Assembly (NCBI GenBank): GCA_018434945.1
Contig: JAHDOI010000016.1
Span: forward strand, 1 to 64,000
Length of the DNA: 64,000 bases
From: Selenomonadales bacterium
GTDB lineage: Bacteria > Bacillota > Negativicutes > Sporomusales > UBA7701
Reading direction: 5' to 3'
Shown: piece by piece, positions 18,166-60,148 of the stretch
Layout of the letters: every line of letters begins with the position of its first letter
Numbering within the stretch: position 1 is the first letter of the stretch
Position numbers and translations under genes: made by a program
The notes under the pieces: generated by a model
Database searches by the model: none
What the model was told of the DNA's origin: nothing
What the model saw: the letters and a program-made list of their open reading frames with translations, nothing else

Positions 18166-18222
18166 CCTGTTTTGGGGACGTATGGATGTTCGCTTGCCGG
18201 AGGCCGGCGGACTGGACGGCTG

Positions 18223-18528
18223 TCAGCGGAAGAGGTCGTCGCCGCTTTTGAAGCCGAGACCGGGGTGGTTGTCGAAGCGGACGACGCCTACGGCGGCTTT
18301 GCCGTCGACGGCCTGTTTGACGAGGGCGGCGCCTTCGAGGCCGAAGCCGCCGCACAGTTCGAGGGCGGCGAAGCCTTCGGCGACGAGCTGGCGGGCTACA
18401 TCCGCCGCTGCGGCGTAGTTTTTGACGCCGATGGCGGTGAGTTTGACGGCGGGGGTGTCGACGACGGCGCGGTGGACGGCGGGGTCGGCGTCGGGGGCGA
18501 CGAAGATGAAGGCTGCTTTGAGGCTCAT
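18223..18528 (-). CDS. DUF6506 family protein
   Basis: 101 residues, compact alpha/beta protein starting MSLKAAFIFVAPDADP with an AAAGGAGG site. The pattern TPAVKLTAIGVKNY, then LVAEGFAALELCGGFG and KAAVGVVRFDNHPGLG is what I associate with DUF6506. No enzymatic role is known to me. As last gene of the acetoin-type operon, separated from acoX by the structured element at 18569-18772, it may be a small accessory or ligand-binding protein. Confidence 0.7.
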   Translation of the reverse strand: MSLKAAFIFVAPDADPAVHRAVVDTPAVKLTAIGVKNYAAAADVARQLVAEGFAALELCGGFGLEGAALVKQAVDGKAAVGVVRFDNHPGLGFKSGDDLFR

Positions 18529-18568
18529 GGAGTTCCTCCTTTGCGGTGTTATTTACGGGCAGCGGGAC

Positions 18569-18772
18569 GAGAGTTGCATTACAAGCGAGTATTGGCGCAG
18601 GACGGTTACGCGCCGTTGACGAAGCGGACCGTTAACGCAACCGTACGCCCGGCCATGGACGGCCGGGCGAGGCGACAACGGGCATGGACGCCCGTTTGGC
18701 GCCGGTACGGCTGAGTCGGCGTGAGTCTACGGCGCGTCCGTCCGTAGACATGCGAGCGGTGATGCAACTCTC
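18569..18772. repeat. Multi-hairpin structured element behind acoX
   Basis: A perfect 11-bp outer stem (GAGAGTTGCAT 18569-18579 with ATGCAACTCTC 18762-18772) encloses about 180 nt with several internal hairpins: CCCGGCC/GGCCGGG, AACGGGC/GCCCGTT, GTCTACGG/CCGTAGAC and CCGTAC/GTACGG. It contains no convincing reading frame and begins 9 bp behind the acoX stop. It differs in sequence from the repeat family at 22-60 kb but has the same kind of position. Confidence 0.6.
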
Positions 18773-18781
18773 GGGACAAGG

Positions 18782-19813
18782 TTAGGTTTGCGCCGGGGAG
18801 CCGGCGGGGAGGCGGAAGACGCCTGCGGCGGCGGCGGCGGTGAGGGCGGCGCGGGCGTCGACGACGAGGGGGCCGTCGAAGGTGAGGCGGATAGAGGCGG
18901 TTTCGCCGGCCCTCACTTCGATTTCGCGTTCGCCGTCGAGGGCTATGACGCAGGGGGTGCTGGCGACGGGGACGTGTTCGCCGATGGCGAGGGCGCGGTA
19001 GCCGCGGTAGCTGACGGGGACCACGACGCCGGGGGCGATGGGGGCGAGGACGGCGGCGGCAGCGTCGCCGAGCTCGATGGCGAGACCGCGGTCGTCGTGG
19101 GGGCCGATGGGGGCCAGCTGGCCGCCGATGGCGGATATGCCGATGGCGTGGGGTTCGCAGCGGGTGAGGACGATCTGGCGGATGGGTTCGATGTCCCAGA
19201 TGGCGCGCGAGCCGATGAAGGCGCCGTCCAGGACGACGGCGTCGACGAGGGCGATGTCGGCGGGGGCACCGTCTTTGACGACAAGCAGTTTCTTGGTGCG
19301 GCGGACGACCGGTTCGCCGCCGGCGAGGCCGCGGGCGACGACGCCGGCGGCGAGGCCGGCGGTCGTGCCTTCCAGCATGGCGGGGAAGACGTTGTTTGTG
19401 CCGGTGGATACGGGCAGGAGGGGAATGTCGCCGCAGCCTTTGGCGACCATGCGGTTTGTGCCGTCGCCGCCGAGGGTGACGATGCAGCCGGCGCCGCTGG
19501 CGCGCATGGCGGCGCCGGCTGCGGCGGAGTCCTGCTGGGTGCAGGTGAGGGGGATGTCGGCGGGGACGGTGTCGAACAGCGGGCGGTCCCGGCTGCTGAG
19601 GCCTTCGAGGGCGCGGGGGACTATGCCGTAGTAGTCGGGCATGTAGATTACTTTATCAACGCCGGCGGCGGCGAGGCCGAGGATTATTCTTCTGACGATG
19701 TTGACTTTTTCGAGGTTGTCGAAGACGGTGCCGTAGGCGACGAGCCGCCTGATGTCTTTGCCCGAGGCCGGGTTGGCGACGATTCCTACCGTGGTCACGC
19801 TATTCCTCCTCAT
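18782..19813 (-). CDS. acoX: AcoX-like ATP-NAD kinase family protein
   Basis: 343 residues. The N-terminus (TVGIVANPASGKDIRRLV) and LGGDGTNRMVAKG are the ATP-NAD/diacylglycerol kinase fold signature (GGDGT). The next segment PLLPVSTGTNNVFP carries the NE/D-like loop in altered form. AcoX is a long-known member of acetoin operons with unproven function. Here it follows the E1 beta gene by 50 bp, as in Clostridium and Bacillus-type aco clusters, which supports the name. It could phosphorylate NAD or a related small molecule. Confidence 0.85.
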   Translation of the reverse strand: MRRNSVTTVGIVANPASGKDIRRLVAYGTVFDNLEKVNIVRRIILGLAAAGVDKVIYMPDYYGIVPRALEGLSSRDRPLFDTVPADIPLTCTQQDSAAAGAAMRASGAGCIVTLGGDGTNRMVAKGCGDIPLLPVSTGTNNVFPAMLEGTTAGLAAGVVARGLAGGEPVVRRTKKLLVVKDGAPADIALVDAVVLDGAFIGSRAIWDIEPIRQIVLTRCEPHAIGISAIGGQLAPIGPHDDRGLAIELGDAAAAVLAPIAPGVVVPVSYRGYRALAIGEHVPVASTPCVIALDGEREIEVRAGETASIRLTFDGPLVVDARAALTAAAAAGVFRLPAGSPAQT

Positions 19814-19863: not shown

Positions 19864-20841
19864 TTAGAAGAGTTCTTTGACGGCCTGGATGATTTTTCCT
19901 TCATCTGGCAGGAAGGCTTTTTCCAGTACCGGGCTGAAGGGGACGGGGGTGTCGGGGGCGGTGACGCGCTTTATCGGGGCGTCGAGGAGGTCGAAGCCTT
20001 CCTCGGCCGCGACGGCGGCGATTTCGCCGCCGAAGCCGCTCGTCCTGACGGCTTCGTGGACGATGACGAGTTTGTGGGTTTTGGCGAGCGAGGCGAGGAT
20101 GGCGTCTTTGTCGAGGGGGACGAGGGTGCGCGGGTCGATGACTTCGGCGCTTATGCCGTCTTTGGCGAGGGCTTCGGCGGCGGCGAGGGCGCGGTGGACC
20201 ATCCACGACCAGGCGACGATGGTGACGTCGGTGCCGGGACGTTTGATGTCGGCTTTGCCGAGCGGGACGAGGTATTCGCCTTCGGGGACGTCGCCGCCGA
20301 GGCCGAGGAGTTGTTTGTGCTCGATGTAGATGACGGGGTTGTCGTCGCGGATGGCGGCGGCCATGAGGCCTTTGGCGTCGGCGGGGGTGGCGGGCATGAC
20401 GGTTTTGAGGCCGGGGATGTGGGTGAACCAGGCTTCCATGCACTGGGAGTGCTGGGCGGCCGCGGCGACGCCGCCGCCGCAGATTGTTTTGAGGACGAGG
20501 GGCACTTTGGCTTTGCCGCCGAACATGTAGCGCATTTTGACGGCCTGGTTGAAGAGTTCGTCCATGCAGACGCCGGTGAAGTCGACGAACATTATTTCGG
20601 CGACCGGCCTGAGGCCGACGGCGGCCGCGCCGACGGCGGAGCCGATGATGGCGGTTTCGGTGATGGGGGTGTCGAGCACCCGGCCGGGGAATTCGTCGAC
20701 GAGGCCGGCGGTGACGCCGAAACAGCCGCCGAATTTACCGACATCCTCGCCGCAGAGATAGACGGCGCTGTCGCGTTTCATTTCCTGCCTGATGCCGTCC
20801 CTGATGGCTTCGGCGTAGGTCATCTTTTTCATTTTCGTCAC
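19864..20841 (-). CDS. acoB: Acetoin/pyruvate dehydrogenase E1 component, beta subunit (set 1)
   Basis: 325 residues. Transketolase pyrimidine-binding domain begins MTYAEAIRDGIRQEM, with GEDVGKFGGCFGVT and DTPITETAIIGSAVGAA; the C-terminal domain has DPRTLVPLDKDAI and HEAVRTSGFGGEIAA. It forms the alpha2beta2 E1 with the gene upstream (13-bp gap) and cleaves acetoin or a 2-oxoacid using TPP. Presence of AcoX and an AcoR activator argues for acetoin, though E1 beta sequences alone do not separate the two. Probably acts with the E2/E3 encoded at 36.8-39.6 kb. Confidence 0.85.
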   Translation of the reverse strand: MTKMKKMTYAEAIRDGIRQEMKRDSAVYLCGEDVGKFGGCFGVTAGLVDEFPGRVLDTPITETAIIGSAVGAAAVGLRPVAEIMFVDFTGVCMDELFNQAVKMRYMFGGKAKVPLVLKTICGGGVAAAAQHSQCMEAWFTHIPGLKTVMPATPADAKGLMAAAIRDDNPVIYIEHKQLLGLGGDVPEGEYLVPLGKADIKRPGTDVTIVAWSWMVHRALAAAEALAKDGISAEVIDPRTLVPLDKDAILASLAKTHKLVIVHEAVRTSGFGGEIAAVAAEEGFDLLDAPIKRVTAPDTPVPFSPVLEKAFLPDEGKIIQAVKELF

Positions 20842-20853
20842 CCTTTCTCTTCG

Positions 20854-21819
20854 TTATTGACCGGCGTAGACGTCGGTGAGCACGTCGGCGGGAACGGGGT
20901 CGGGGCTGCTTTCCGCGAAGGCCACGGCGGCCGCGACCTGGGCTTTGACGGCGTCGGCGATGTTGGCGAGGTCGGCTTCGCCGGCGTGGCCGAGTTCGAT
21001 GATTTTCTGCGCCAGCCGGGGGATGGGGTCTTTCTGGAGCCAGGTTTTCTGTTCTTCGGGGTTTTTGTAGGTGGCGGGGTCGCCTTCGAAGTGGCCGCGC
21101 CACCGCCAGGTCTTGCATTCGATGAGGCTGGGGCCGTCGCCCTGCCTGGCCCGCTTGACGCCTTCGGCGGCGGCTTCGAAGACGGCTACGACGTCGTTGC
21201 CGTCGACGGTGACGCCGGGGACGCCGTAGGCGGCGGCGCGGTCGGAGATGTCGCAGATGTTCATGTGGTCGCGCTGGCAGTTGGAGATGCCGTACATGTT
21301 GTTTTCGCAGACGAAGACGACAGGCAGTTTCCAGATGGAGGCGAGGTTCATGGCTTCGTGGAATGTGCCGCGGTTGGAGGCGCCGTCGCCGAAGAAGCAG
21401 ACGGCGATGGCGCCGTTCTGCTGGTATTTGCAGGCGAAGGCGGCGCCGACGGCGATGGGCTGGCCGGCACCGACGATGCCGTTGGCGCCGAGGATGCCGA
21501 GGTCGACGTCGGCGATGTGCATGGAGCCGCCTTTGCCTTTGCAGTAGCCGGTGGCTTTGCCGTAGAGCTCGGCCATCATGAGGTCGACTTTGCCGCCTTT
21601 GGCGATGAGGTGGCCGTGGCCGCGGTGGGTGCTGGTGATGTAGTCTTTGGCGGTGAGGTTGGCGCAGACGCCGGTGGCGACCGCTTCTTCGCCGATGTAG
21701 AGGTGGACGAAGCCGGGCAGTTTGCCGGCGGCGAAGAGTTCGGCCGCTTTGTTCTCAAAGGTCCTGATGGTCACCATGGTCTGGTAGAACGCGAGCAGGT
21801 TTTCCTTTGCCAGTTGCAT
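20854..21819 (-). CDS. acoA: Acetoin/pyruvate dehydrogenase E1 component, alpha subunit (set 1)
   Basis: 321 residues from ATG 21819 with GAAGGAGGG upstream; the frame runs on to 22320 without family sequence. The TPP motif is GDGASNRGTFHEAMNLAS...N (GDG at about residue 160), and GYCKGKGGSMHIAD precedes it, as in AcoA/PdhA of this subfamily. It lacks the phosphorylation loops of mitochondrial enzymes. It lies behind the Lin0512 gene in the sigma-54-controlled operon. Confidence 0.88.
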   Translation of the reverse strand: MQLAKENLLAFYQTMVTIRTFENKAAELFAAGKLPGFVHLYIGEEAVATGVCANLTAKDYITSTHRGHGHLIAKGGKVDLMMAELYGKATGYCKGKGGSMHIADVDLGILGANGIVGAGQPIAVGAAFACKYQQNGAIAVCFFGDGASNRGTFHEAMNLASIWKLPVVFVCENNMYGISNCQRDHMNICDISDRAAAYGVPGVTVDGNDVVAVFEAAAEGVKRARQGDGPSLIECKTWRWRGHFEGDPATYKNPEEQKTWLQKDPIPRLAQKIIELGHAGEADLANIADAVKAQVAAAVAFAESSPDPVPADVLTDVYAGQ

Positions 21820-22353: not shown

Positions 22354-22477
22354 GCGGCCGTTCAGAAAGGCCCAGATGCAAGGCGCACCGGAGGCTGACA
22401 CCGGAAGCGTACACGAACGTACGCTGAGGATGGCAGCCGAGGAGCAACGCCGCAGATGGGCCTTTATCAACGGCCGC
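22354..22477 (+). repeat. Structured intergenic repeat, copy 1
   Basis: Outer stem GCGGCCGTT/AACGGCCGC, inner motif CCAGATGC.../GCAGATGG and GGCTG/CAGCC apical stem with GCGTAC/GTACGC. 124 bp, 64 bp behind the acoR stop. Same inner sequence type as copy 3. Confidence 0.85.
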
Positions 22478-28996: not shown

Positions 28997-29119
28997 CGGC
29001 CGTTCAGAAGTGCCCAGATGCAAGGCGCACCGGAAGAGCGCGCCGCGCCGCGTACCCGGAATGTACGCAAGCAAGCGCTCTGAGGAACAACGCCGCAGAT
29101 GGGCGCTTATCAACGGCCG
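28997..29119 (+). repeat. Structured intergenic repeat, copy 2
   Basis: Outer stem CGGCCGTT/AACGGCCG, CCAGATGC/GCAGATGG motif, apical stem AGAGCGC/GCGCTCT. 123 bp, 45 bp behind the solute-binding protein gene and before the permease, so it sits inside an operon. Confidence 0.85.
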
Positions 29120-33805: not shown

Positions 33806-33930
33806 GCGGACGTTCAGAACCGCCCAGATACAAGGCGCACCGGAGGCTGACACCGGAAGCGTACACGGGACGTACGCTGAGGATGGCAGCCGAGGAGCAA
33901 CGCAGTAGATGGGCGGTTATGGGCGGACGC
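33806..33930 (+). repeat. Structured intergenic repeat, copy 3 (degenerate right arm)
   Basis: Has the CGTTCAGAA start, CCAGATAC motif and the same GGCTG...CAGCC apical region as copy 1. The right outer arm is altered (TTATGGGCGGACGC in place of TTATCAACGTCCGC), so the base of the stem is broken. It lies 1 bp behind the DUF815 stop. Confidence 0.75.
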
Positions 33931-39648: not shown

Positions 39649-40626
39649 TCACCGGCCGAGGGTTTGCCTGACGGCGGCGGCGATGTCGCCGGGGTTGGGG
39701 TAGATGAAGTCTTCGAGCGCCGGGCTGAAGGGCGGGACGACGTTGAGGCCGGCGACCCTTTTGACGGGGGCGTCGAGGTGGTCGAAGAGGTCTTCGCCGA
39801 TCTGGGCGGCGAGTTCGGCGCCATAGCCGCCGCGTTTGACGGCTTCGTGGACGACGACGGCGCGGTGGGTTTTGGCGATGGAGGATGCGAGGGTTTCCCA
39901 ATCGAGGGGGACGAGGCTCCTGAGGTCGAGGACTTCGGCGTCGATGCCTTCGCCGGCGAGGGTCCGGGCGGCTTCGAGGGCGGAGTGGACCTGGCGGGAC
40001 CAGGCGATGATGGTGACGTCGCGGCCGGGCCTCTTGATGTCGGCGGCGCCGAGGGGGATGGTGCAGTCGCCGTCGGGGACTTCGCCTTTGGTGGCGTAGA
40101 GGAGTTTATGCTCGATGCAGACGACGGGGTCGTCGTCACGGATGGCGGTTTTGAGGAGGCCTTTGATGTCGGCCGGGGTGCTGGGAGCGATGACTTTGAG
40201 GCCGGGTATATGGGTGAAAAGGGCCTCGAGGCTCTGGGAGTGCTGGCCGGCGTTGCGGCGTCCGGCGCCGCCGGGGCAGCGGAGGACAAGGGGGACGCTG
40301 GCCTGGCCGCCGGTCATGTAGCGCATTTTGGCGGCCTGGTTGACGATGGCGTCGAAGCATACGGGGGTGAAGTCGACGTACATTATTTCGACGACGGGCT
40401 TGAGGCCGCGCAGGGCGGCGCCGACGGCCATGGCGGTGAAGCCGGCTTCTGATATGGGGGTGTCGATGACGCGGTTGGCGCCGAATTCTTCGAGGAAGCC
40501 TTTTGTGAGGCCGAAGACGCTGCCCATGACGGCCATGTCTTCGCCGAGGATGAAGACGTTTTCGTCGCGGAGCAGCTCTTCGCGGAGGGCTTCGCTGACG
40601 GCCTGACCGTAGGTGATGGTCTTCAT
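39649..40626 (-). CDS. 2-oxoacid/acetoin dehydrogenase E1, beta subunit (set 2)
   Basis: 325 residues from ATG 40626, whose ATGA overlaps the alpha stop; frames further upstream are shadows. Start KTITYGQAVSEALREEL, GEDMAVMGSVFGLT, DTPISEAGFTAMAVGAA, and C-terminal RSLVPLDWETL and HEAVKRGGYGAELA. A distinguishing feature is RCPGGAGRRNAGQHSQSLE, where set 1 and 3 have different residues. Followed by E2, so this pair is the one most tightly tied to the complex. Confidence 0.88.
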   Translation of the reverse strand: MKTITYGQAVSEALREELLRDENVFILGEDMAVMGSVFGLTKGFLEEFGANRVIDTPISEAGFTAMAVGAALRGLKPVVEIMYVDFTPVCFDAIVNQAAKMRYMTGGQASVPLVLRCPGGAGRRNAGQHSQSLEALFTHIPGLKVIAPSTPADIKGLLKTAIRDDDPVVCIEHKLLYATKGEVPDGDCTIPLGAADIKRPGRDVTIIAWSRQVHSALEAARTLAGEGIDAEVLDLRSLVPLDWETLASSIAKTHRAVVVHEAVKRGGYGAELAAQIGEDLFDHLDAPVKRVAGLNVVPPFSPALEDFIYPNPGDIAAAVRQTLGR

Positions 40627-41618
40627 CTGGCCACGCTCCTCTCGTTGTCGGCGGCGTAAACGTCGCGGACGACTTCGCCCGGCTCGGGGTAGGGCGATTG
40701 TTCGGCGAAGGTGACGGCGTCGTCGATTTCGCGGCGGACGCTTGTTTCGATTTCTGCGAGTTCGGCGGCCGCGCCGGGGTCGAGCGTCAGAACGGCGGCC
40801 CTGAGGAGGACGAGCGGGTCGCGTTCTTTCCAGCCGGCGGCTTCGTCGGCGGGTTTGTAGATCTGGGGGTCGCCTTCGTAGTGGCCGCGGTGGCGGTAGG
40901 TTTTTGCTTCGATGAGGGTGGGCCCCTCCCCCGCCCTGGCCCGCGAGGCGGCGGCGCTGACGGCTTCGAAGACGGCGACGACGTCGTTGCCGTCGACGAC
41001 GATGCCGGGGATGTCGTAGGCTTTGGCGCGGTCGGCGATGTCGGCGATGTTGGTGACGCGGTCGATGGCGACGGAGACGCCGTATTTGTTGTTTTCGCAC
41101 AGGAAGATTACAGGCAGGCGCCAGGCGGAGGCCATGTTGAGGGCTTCGTGGAAGACGCCTTCGTTGGAGGCGCCGTCGCCGAAGAAGGCGAGGGTGACTT
41201 CACGGCCGCCTTTGATTTTGCTGGCGAGGGCCGAGCCGGCGGCAATGGGGATGCCGGCGCCGACGATGCCGTTGGCGCCGAGGATGCCGAGGCCGAGGTC
41301 GGCGATGTGCATTGAGCCGCCTTTGCCTTTGCAGTAGCCGGTGGCTTTGCCGAAGAGTTCGGCCATCATGACGGCGGCCTGGCCGCCTTTGGCGAGGCAG
41401 TGGCCGTGGCCGCGGTGGGTGGAGGTGATGAAGTCGGTCGGCTCGAGGGCCTGACAGGCGCCGACGGCAGTGGCTTCCTGGCCGATGCAGGTGTGGATGT
41501 TGCCGGCCATGCGGCCCTGGCTGAAGAGTTCGGCGGCTTTGAGGTCGAACTGGCGGATGCGCTGCATTTCCCGGTAGAAGCGCAGCAGGGTGTCACGGCC
41601 GGGCTTTTTGGTTTTCAT
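40623..41618 (-). CDS. 2-oxoacid/acetoin dehydrogenase E1, alpha subunit (set 2)
   Basis: 331 residues. TPP motif GDGASNEGVFHEALNMAS, preceded by GYCKGKGGSMHIADLGLGILGA (in two parts: GYCKGKGGSMHIAD and LGILGANGIVGAG). The N-terminus KPGRDTLLRFYREMQRIRQFD differs from set 1 and 3, pointing to divergence in substrate or partner contacts. It follows dctM after 226 bp containing a large stem. Confidence 0.88.
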   Translation of the reverse strand: MKTKKPGRDTLLRFYREMQRIRQFDLKAAELFSQGRMAGNIHTCIGQEATAVGACQALEPTDFITSTHRGHGHCLAKGGQAAVMMAELFGKATGYCKGKGGSMHIADLGLGILGANGIVGAGIPIAAGSALASKIKGGREVTLAFFGDGASNEGVFHEALNMASAWRLPVIFLCENNKYGVSVAIDRVTNIADIADRAKAYDIPGIVVDGNDVVAVFEAVSAAASRARAGEGPTLIEAKTYRHRGHYEGDPQIYKPADEAAGWKERDPLVLLRAAVLTLDPGAAAELAEIETSVRREIDDAVTFAEQSPYPEPGEVVRDVYAADNERSVAR

Positions 41619-44732: not shown

Positions 44733-45707
44733 TTAATTACACAGCTTCTTAGCTGCAAGGGCAACGTCGTCAGCGGTGATCTTGACGAGTTTTTCGAGGT
44801 TGGGGCTGAAGGGTATCGGCACGTAGGGGGCGCCGATGCGCACGATGGGGGCGTCGAGGAGGTCGAGGTTTTCTTCGGCGGCGCGGGCGGCGATTTCCGC
44901 GCCGACCCCGCCGGTCTTGACGGCTTCGTGGACGATCATGAGCCGGTGGGTTTTGGCGATTGAGGCGTAGATGGCGTCAAAGTCGATGGGCGAGATGGTC
45001 CTGAGGTCGATGACTTCGGCTTCTATCCCCTGCCCGGCGAGTTTGTCGGCGGCTTCGAGGACGCGGTGCAGCATCATGGAGTAGGAGACGATGGTGAGGT
45101 CGCGGCCCGGCCGGACGATGTTGGCTTTGCCGATGGGCACGAGGTGGTCGCCGTCAGGTACCGGCCCTTTGGTGGGAAAAAGGGCTTTGTGTTCGAAGTA
45201 GAGGACGGGGTCGTCGCTGCGGATGGCTGCTTTGAGGAGGCCTTTGGCGTCGGCCGGATTCGAGGGGACGACGACTTTGAGGCCGGGGACGTGGAGGAAC
45301 CACGATTCGAGGCTTTGGGAGTGCTGGGCGGCCGCCGAGCGGATGATGCCGTCGGGGGCGCGGAGGACGACGGGGACGGTGCATTGGCCGCCGAACATGT
45401 AGCGGATTTTGGCCATCTGGTTGACGACTTCGTCCATGCAGACGGTGATGAAGTCGGCGAAGTGCATGTCGACGACGGGCCGCATGCCTGCGAGGGCCGC
45501 GCCGACGCCGGCGCCGACGATGGCGGTTTCGGAGATGGGGGTGTCGAGGACCCGGTCGGTGCCGAATCGCTGGGGCAGGCCTTTGAATTGGCCGAATATG
45601 CCGCCCTGGCGGGCGATGTCCTCACCCATGACGAAGACGCGCGCGTCGCGCTCCATTTCTTCGGCCATGGCTTCGAGGGTGGCTTCGGAGAATGTTATTT
45701 CCCGCAT
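44733..45707 (-). CDS. 2-oxoacid/acetoin dehydrogenase E1, beta subunit (set 3)
   Basis: 324 residues. Start REITFSEATLEAMAEEM, GEDIARQGGIFGQFKGLP, DTPISETAIVGAGVGAA; C-terminal RTISPIDFDAI and HEAVKTGGVGAEIAA. It stops 28 bp before dctP, so E1 and TRAP transporter are one transcript. It starts 1 bp from the stop of its alpha partner. Confidence 0.88.
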   Translation of the reverse strand: MREITFSEATLEAMAEEMERDARVFVMGEDIARQGGIFGQFKGLPQRFGTDRVLDTPISETAIVGAGVGAALAGMRPVVDMHFADFITVCMDEVVNQMAKIRYMFGGQCTVPVVLRAPDGIIRSAAAQHSQSLESWFLHVPGLKVVVPSNPADAKGLLKAAIRSDDPVLYFEHKALFPTKGPVPDGDHLVPIGKANIVRPGRDLTIVSYSMMLHRVLEAADKLAGQGIEAEVIDLRTISPIDFDAIYASIAKTHRLMIVHEAVKTGGVGAEIAARAAEENLDLLDAPIVRIGAPYVPIPFSPNLEKLVKITADDVALAAKKLCN

Positions 45708-45708
45708 G

Positions 45709-46683
45709 TTACTTCACCCCTTCCACATAAAGGTCTGCGAATAGTTCGGCTTCGTCGGGGTAGGGCGCCTGGCGGGCTTCCCCGACCGCCTGCTCGATTT
45801 CGCGGGCGGTTTCGGACGCGATGGCGTCGAGGTCGGCCTGTTTGAGGAGTTTGGCGCCGATGACCTTGTGGGCGAAGTTTTTGAGGGGGTCGTTTTCGTC
45901 GAAGTGTTTCTGCACTTCGGCTTTGGTGCGGTACATTTCGGGGTCGCCGACGAAGTGGCCTTTGATGCGGTAGGTTTTTGCCTCGATGAGGGTGGGGCCT
46001 TCGCCGGCGCGGGCGCGGTCGATGGCGGCTTTGGCGGTTTCGAGGACGGCGAAGATGTCGTTGCCGTCGACGACGACGCCGGGGATGCCGTAGCCTTTGG
46101 CGCGGTCGGCGATGTCTTCGATGTTGTTGGTGGTCCGGTAGGGGGTGGTCGAGGCCCATTGGTTGTTTTCGTTTACGAAGACGACCGGCAGTTTCCAGGC
46201 GGCGGCCATGTTGATGCCTTCGTGGAATGTGCCGCGGTTGGAGGCGCCGTCGCCGAAGAAGCAGACGGCCACCTGGCCGGATTTGCGCATTTTCGCGGCG
46301 AGGGCCGCTCCGACGGCGAGGTTGTAACCGCCGCCGACGACGCCGTTGGCGCCGAGCATGCCGACGGAGAAGTCGGCGATGTGCATGGAGCCGCCTTTGC
46401 CTTTGCAGTAGCCGGTCTGTTTGCCGAAGATTTCGGCCATCATCGGGCCGATCTTGGCGCCTTTGGCGATGCAGTGGCCGTGGCCCCGGTGGGTGCTGGT
46501 GATGTAGTCCTGGTCGGTGAGGCTGGCGCAGACGCCGACGGCGATGGCTTCTTCGCCCACATAGAGGTGGACGAAACCCGGCAGCTCGCCGCCGAGGAAG
46601 AGTTCGCCGATTTTTTCTTCGAACAGTCTGATGCTTATCATCCGCCGATAGAGGTGGCGTAGAAATTCGGCATCATGTTTCAT
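45709..46683 (-). CDS. 2-oxoacid/acetoin dehydrogenase E1, alpha subunit (set 3)
   Basis: 324 residues from ATG 46683 (GAGGGGTGATC upstream). TPP motif GDGASNRGTFHEGINMAA, with GYCKGKGGSMHIADFSVGML (written whole at 20 residues) before it. The loop NENNQWASTTPYRTT differs from set 1 (ENNMYGISNCQRD) and set 2 (ENNKYGVSVAIDR) at the position that lines the substrate channel, so substrate range may differ. First gene behind the sigma-54 promoter. Confidence 0.88.
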   Translation of the reverse strand: MKHDAEFLRHLYRRMISIRLFEEKIGELFLGGELPGFVHLYVGEEAIAVGVCASLTDQDYITSTHRGHGHCIAKGAKIGPMMAEIFGKQTGYCKGKGGSMHIADFSVGMLGANGVVGGGYNLAVGAALAAKMRKSGQVAVCFFGDGASNRGTFHEGINMAAAWKLPVVFVNENNQWASTTPYRTTNNIEDIADRAKGYGIPGVVVDGNDIFAVLETAKAAIDRARAGEGPTLIEAKTYRIKGHFVGDPEMYRTKAEVQKHFDENDPLKNFAHKVIGAKLLKQADLDAIASETAREIEQAVGEARQAPYPDEAELFADLYVEGVK

Positions 46684-58623: not shown

Positions 58624-58850
58624 GCGGCCGTTCAGAAGGCCCCAGATGCAAGGCGCACCGGAGGATGGCCCGCGACGACGGTCCCGGATGGGCCTAGTGC
58701 CGGGCGCGCCATGGATGGCATAGCGCCCGGCCGGCGTACTTGGTTGCGTACGTCGAGTGGGCCCTCCGAGGAGCAAGTGCGCAAGTTCTTGGCGCTTCAG
58801 CGCCTAGAACTGCGGCCTACCCCCTGCGGGTGCGCAGCAGATGGGGCCGG
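58624..58850 (+). repeat. Structured intergenic repeat, copy 9 (cassette B, right arm lost)
   Basis: Starts GCGGCCGTTCAGAA like copies 1, 4 and 8, carries cassette B at about 58775-58842 and an extra hairpin GCCGGGCGC/GCGCCCGGC (about 58701-58731). The expected TTATCAACGGCCGC is missing after GCAGATGGGGCC; copy 10 begins 8 bp later. Confidence 0.8.
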
Positions 58851-59967: not shown

Positions 59968-60148
59968 GCGGGCGTTCAGAAGCCGCCAGATGCAAGGCGG
60001 CTCCGCCGGGCGCGCCGCGCCGCGTACTCGGCACGTACGTAAGCAAGCGCCCGGTGGAACAAGTGCGCCGTTCTTGGTGCCTCAGCACCTTAGAACGGCG
60101 GCCTACCCCTTGCGGGTGCGCCGCAGATGGTGGCTTATCAACGCCCGC
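59968..60148 (+). repeat. Structured intergenic repeat, copy 11 (cassette B variant)
   Basis: Outer stem GCGGGCGTT/AACGCCCGC, CCAGATGC/GCAGATGG motif. Cassette B with compensatory changes: GTTCTTGGTGC/GCACCTTAGAAC where copies 6 and 9 have GGCGC/GCGCC. 181 bp, touching the murA stop codon with no gap. Confidence 0.85.

Follow-up and report, generated by a model that had tools for sequence, protein, structure and literature searches.

A TwoAYGGAY RNA between acoX and a DUF6506 gene is one copy of a dispersed repeat and carries two candidate CsrA-binding loops

Introduction

In a 64,000-nucleotide (nt) stretch of DNA from a Selenomonadales bacterium (assembly GCA_018434945.1, contig JAHDOI010000016.1, positions 1 to 64,000; hereafter the window), about 200 nt of strongly self-complementary sequence lie inside the aco operon, between acoX and a DUF6506 gene. 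What is this element, how did it come to stand there, and does it act on its neighbours? A reading made earlier from the letters alone (the sequence-only reading) regarded it as a multi-hairpin element of a second type. The present analysis shows instead that it is a further copy of the TwoAYGGAY RNA, a family already recorded as Rfam RF01731. TwoAYGGAY dates from 2010, when Weinberg et al. presented it as a likely RNA with no known function and scored it as unlikely to be cis-regulatory (PMC2864571). A proposal that CsrA binds its two loops followed in 2014 (PMC4333381); no test of this proposal was found in the literature searched. With moderate confidence, our best reading is that TwoAYGGAY is a dispersed mobile element carrying an RNA with two sites that, judging from their sequence, would bind CsrA.

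Genomes are denoted G000 (the window's own), G001 to G004 (four congeners) and G005 (a sister genus), and L- and C-numbers denote loci and contigs.

Identity and fold of the element

The match to RF01731 is the only Rfam match at the gathering score in the whole window and covers the full model, and none of 14 control genomes matched the family. The two hairpins with AYGGAY loops that characterize TwoAYGGAY are both present, each with the loop AUGGAC. An unrecorded RNA type is ruled out by this match. The parts of the element are as follows.

18568-18773, + strand: whole element, TwoAYGGAY RNA plus extended outer stem (12-bp perfect ends, z -7.96, dispersed copies, empty in G003 and G004)
18593-18750, + strand: full-length hit for TwoAYGGAY, Rfam RF01731, covering model positions 1-168 of 168 (63.5 bits against a gathering score of 43, E 3.2e-8)
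18568-18580, + strand: outer stem, 5′ arm, terminal inverted repeat (partner 18761-18773; two-sided change at 15/15 helix pairs, 37 copies)
18761-18773, + strand: outer stem, 3′ arm (covariation and perfect 12-bp complementarity)
18600-18616, + strand: second stem, 5′ arm, GGACGG..ACGCGCCGT (partner 18729-18743; helices 3 and 4 paired in 92 and 99.7% of cells)
18729-18743, + strand: second stem, 3′ arm (covariation in aligned copies)
18646-18669, + strand: hairpin 1, 9-bp stem, hexaloop AUGGAC at 18655-18660 closed by C-G, candidate CsrA site 1 (98.5% of cells paired; GGA in 91/92 copies)
18676-18698, + strand: hairpin 2, hexaloop AUGGAC at 18684-18689 closed by C-G, candidate CsrA site 2 (99.6% of cells paired)

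The outer arms CGAGAGTTGCAT (18568-18579) and ATGCAACTCTCG (18762-18773) are complementary without a mismatch, as had been noted, over 12 bp, one more than the 11 bp given before. The minimum free energy of the + strand was -122.6 kcal/mol, compared with -88.7 ± 4.3 kcal/mol for shuffled sequences, and none of 200 shuffles was as low; the - strand also folded better than its shuffles (z -6.95). The multi-hairpin structure seen by the sequence-only reading is therefore real, and so are the ATGGA loops that it found in two inner hairpins, whose distance from site 1 to site 2 is 29 nt. An open reading frame (ORF) of 180 amino acids (18172-18714, + strand) overlaps the element in the direction opposite to the aco genes, mostly antisense to the DUF6506 gene, but it looks spurious, and the element can still be described as lacking a reading frame.

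Selection on the fold and on the loops

Covariation was determined in an alignment of 37 copies picked with a filter for AYGGAY-like loops. Two-sided changes were found in 24 of the 51 pairs, and in the outer helix all 15 pairs were compensatory. The fraction of cells paired was 94.8%, compared with 83.1% in shuffles and approximately 35-39% when slid, and the covariation score was reached by none of 500 shuffles. G-U pairs outnumbered A-C mismatches (51 versus 25, p 0.004, the cells not being independent), and this excess indicates that the folded molecule is probably the RNA of the AYGGAY (+) strand. Selection on the strand with the AUGGAC loops to fold as RNA is thus supported statistically.

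Because of the filter, loop conservation was measured again without it, in 92 copies. GGA was retained in loop 1 in 91 of them; in loop 2 it stood in the aligned column in 73, and most of the others had a shifted GGA. Among 100 copies with both loops, the pattern C-ANGGAN-G fitted 98 at one loop and 96 at the other, and the spacing between loops was 29 nt in 89. Selection for a repeated loop, which had been suggested from the single copy, is borne out by these counts. In a subclass of copies (L043, L012, L014, L140, L155, L157, L162 and L165), hairpin 2 is swapped for sequences like TCCGCAAGGAGCCGGATGCGACTTTTGCGGA, with GGA motifs retained.

Compensatory changes in the arms could also arise in replication, by template switching that corrects quasi-palindromes, and not from selection on an RNA fold. 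At one orthologous locus (L006, L065 and L069) the arms changed in a clustered and coordinated way, in line with this process, which nevertheless leaves the conservation of the loops, the G-U excess and the covariation of the inner helices unexplained, and we regard it as very improbable.

A dispersed and mobile family

Copies were counted by genome search. The window's own genome had 28 matches to RF01731, 23 of them over the cut-off, and the four congeners had 15, 17, 24 and 33 matches. The sister genus G005 had no copies, and in the rest of the order copies were found in one genome only. At the aco locus of G003 and G004, acoX and the DUF6506 gene are separated by a short spacer without the element, with gene order intact, whereas in G001 a short stretch like the end of the element persists as a remnant. 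Other loci also showed filled, empty and partial states between species. These comparisons show that the element belongs to a dispersed repeat family of a Selenomonadales genus, whose copies are gained, lost, truncated and inverted locus by locus. The possibility that it is unique, unconserved sequence with pairing no better than shuffled, which would have undermined the sequence-only reading, fails on all three counts, as seen from the copies, the covariation and the z-score.

At two loci, congeners carry the element at the same place but in opposite orientations (L018 of G000 versus L067 of G004, and L149 of G003 versus L071 of G004). With flanking genes called by a simple codon model, 20 copies were in sense orientation, 14 antisense, 3 between convergent and 3 between divergent genes, showing no clear bias.

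Such behaviour is also expected from a selfish repeat similar to a miniature inverted-repeat transposable element (MITE), in which fold and loops serve only its own mobilisation, as RNA or as single-stranded DNA recognized by a transposase or another factor, and CsrA has no role. The dispersed copies, the presence and absence at loci, the remnants, the in-place inversions, the mixed orientation and the terminal inverted repeats all agree with it. However, no consistent target-site duplication was seen at the empty sites compared, and the inverted arms, found in nearly all full copies, differ in sequence by subfamily, unlike classical terminal repeats. A 5-bp GTCCC repeat on both sides of the aco copy may be due to chance. 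Retention of GGA loops even where hairpin 2 is replaced, the G-U bias pointing to RNA, and the co-occurrence with CsrA described below also argue against a purely selfish repeat, which we therefore consider rather unlikely. No parent or autonomous element and no mobilising enzyme was identified.

Several copies have themselves received insertions. Extra hairpins are inserted in some, for example in L047 and L044 (one with TTAGCGGTTAGAGGGGCGGCC, one with AAGCGATCACATCGCCGCTAAAGCGGCGTGTGCCTGCTTAC), indicating that copies grow by insertion. At four contig ends of G000, TwoAYGGAY or TwoAYGGAY-like copies share, at the same position, an identical stretch as long as 138 nt (GACCAGCTATGAAAAGTCAAG...):

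C59:15141-15278, C82:1-133, C87:1-133, C94:1-120: shared sequence at contig ends

This is probably a collapsed multi-copy insertion that targets the TwoAYGGAY repeat site-specifically. A group II intron or a fragment of an insertion sequence was rejected for these contig ends, since there was no Rfam intron match and the shared sequence is a separate repeat inside TwoAYGGAY copies. The shared sequence was absent from the five other genomes of the family, and neither the plasmid collection nor an exact-pattern scan of the viral collection yielded a relative of it. Scanned by exact pattern, the viral collection also had no copy of the TwoAYGGAY core motif.

A second dispersed repeat, CGTTCAGAAGNCCCCAGATGCAAGGCGC, has five copies in the window, where none is expected, and occurs also beside some TwoAYGGAY copies; it has no Rfam match and may be the first type of element of the sequence-only reading:

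22359-22386, 29001-29028, 33811-33838, 58629-58656 and 59973-60000, + strand: CGTTCAGAAGNCCCCAGATGCAAGGCGC repeat

Two c-di-GMP-I riboswitches, L052:1869-1953 (+) and L047:154-243 (-), lie less than 2 kb from TwoAYGGAY copies on contig C77.

Role at the aco locus

The genes on either side of the element are both on the - strand.

18782-19813, - strand: gene of acoX type with an NAD_kinase domain, upstream of the insertion
18223-18528, - strand: DUF6506 gene, downstream of the insertion (PF20116, E 3.8e-37; ribosome-binding site, with AGGAGG before the start codon, intact)

The acoX stop codon is at 18782-18784, which agrees with the 9 bp counted earlier from an element end at 18772. The window also contains three paralogous aco-type dehydrogenase gene sets, at 19921-21732, 39712-41522 and 44793-46596 (repeat families D14, D16 and D17; 66-83% identity to the reference copy of each family).

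Since the RF01731 match is on the + strand, the RNA strand of this copy is antisense to the aco operon, and for this reason the copy probably has no action on the operon mRNA. In the operon-strand complement the two terminal loops have no GGA, and a direct effect of CsrA on the aco mRNA through this copy is therefore unlikely. A CsrA site on the operon strand was accordingly rejected, the complement having no ANGGA motif in any hairpin loop of its predicted fold.

The sequence-only reading had raised the question whether DUF6506 expression is uncoupled from acoX. Such uncoupling might be due to a cis-regulatory RNA of the adjacent gene, which is what the label 'Cis-reg' in Rfam suggests, or to a stabiliser or attenuator in the 3′ untranslated region (UTR). 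The element's position between two operon genes, the very stable fold of both strands and the location of 34 of 40 copies between co-directional genes are consistent with this explanation. On the other hand, copies occur in both orientations and invert in place, two congeners have no element at aco although gene order is intact, and Weinberg et al. (2010) considered cis-regulation by the motif unlikely (PMC2864571). Uncoupling by an operon RNA thus found no direct support, and we judge a cis-regulatory role improbable. Regulation of the downstream gene, tried as a candidate by the consistency of orientation, was not supported by the 20 sense and 14 antisense copies. The likeliest local role at aco is none, or that of a passive hairpin between two genes.

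Link to CsrA

Hexaloops of the type CANGGANG are high-affinity targets of CsrA/RsmE, and CsrA sites have an optimum spacing of approximately 18 nt, with an example at 21 nt (PMC4894983); the 29-nt spacing of TwoAYGGAY is longer than both, bridging by a dimer being compared here by spacing alone. Among the 398 genomes of the phylum examined, 51 bear the motif and 284 have CsrA. CsrA was present in 48 of the 50 motif-bearing genomes other than G000, compared with 236 of 347 genomes lacking the motif (p 7e-6 when counted by genome, 4e-4 when counted by genus, without phylogenetic correction). In the CsrA of the genus (L124:3001-3225), residue 4 is Leu and residue 44 is Arg, both named as critical residues (PMC7652899).

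Within the genus, csrA was found in G001, G002 and G004, but neither in the G000 assembly nor in G003, which is 87% complete. In G004, fliW and csrA are adjacent. The flagellar locus of G000 breaks at fliW-csrA, C38 ending within flgL and C81 starting within the flagellin gene (gap between C38:1 and C81:1), and csrA is probably missing from the assembly because fliW and csrA would lie in the contig gap. As the locus is broken exactly where these genes would stand, the absence of csrA from G000 was rejected as a refutation of a CsrA role.

According to the reading of TwoAYGGAY as a mobile CsrA-binding RNA, two C-ANGGAN-G hexaloops, which a rigid scaffold of several stems holds at a distance of 29 nt, would bind a CsrA dimer, and transcribed copies would titrate CsrA or provide a site for it between cistrons. 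The sequence present in the aco mRNA is the complement, with GUCCAU loops, where no CsrA binding would be expected. Unless an antisense transcript exists, the aco copy would be a passenger that adds only a strong hairpin between acoX and the DUF6506 gene.

Several points weigh against a CsrA-binding role. No transcript of any copy is known here, and neither a promoter-like site nor a convincing terminator was found near the aco copy. The co-occurrence with CsrA may reflect common descent and motility; CsrA is also common in genomes that lack the motif, as in the sister genus G005, where CsrA occurs and copies do not. Most CsrA ligands obtained by in vitro selection (SELEX) have at most 4 contiguous pairs (PMC7652899), and the stems of TwoAYGGAY are longer. 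Orientation relative to genes is mixed (20:14), unlike that of a cis-acting element, and the csrA gene has still to be counted as missing from the gapped G000 assembly and from the incomplete G003.

If the CsrA-binding reading holds, a mobile repeat would spread pairs of CsrA-binding hairpins, and transposition might build and rewire a distributed CsrA sponge in bacteria where FliW also controls CsrA; this extension is possible but doubtful. A review states that the joint action of FliW and small RNAs (sRNAs) on CsrA is undetermined in any species (PMC7652899), and this genus has both fliW-csrA and dozens of RNAs that are candidates for CsrA binding. For TwoAYGGAY, an orphan family since 2010, the 2014 proposal becomes directly testable through the fit of the loops over approximately 100 copies, together with the strand signal and the joint occurrence with CsrA. 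Mobility of the family would be an added way of spreading CsrA sites.

Comparison with known systems

The element resembles TwoAYGGAY as described in 2010 (PMC2864571) in its full-length match over the gathering score, its two AYGGAY hairpins and its multi-stem scaffold. It differs in that it is a repeat, dispersed and dimorphic, whose outer stem (approximately 9-25 bp) has a subfamily-specific sequence, and in its Selenomonadales host, the hosts of 2010 being from human gut, Clostridiales and gammaproteobacteria (PMC2864571). To what was known of the family, the present analysis adds mobility and copy number in the genus, the evidence on the strand and the statistical link to CsrA.

MITEs and REP-type repeats (reviewed in PMC10969869) are likewise short repeats, dispersed between genes and non-coding, that have inverted ends and fold stably as RNA, and some of them yield sRNAs, whereas the present family showed no target-site duplication, no conservation of the arms across subfamilies and no parent element. 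With the CsrA-titrating sRNAs of the CsrB, CsrC and RsmZ type it shares GGA in hairpin loops and more than one site per RNA. Those sRNAs have many sites and are encoded at one or two loci, while TwoAYGGAY has two sites per RNA, many dispersed copies and no known transcript. The flaA leader of Campylobacter jejuni, an mRNA-borne titrator of CsrA (PMC4894983), is similar in belonging to an organism with FliW-CsrA, but it is a 5′ UTR over a ribosome-binding site, in contrast to the mobile intergenic repeat described here.
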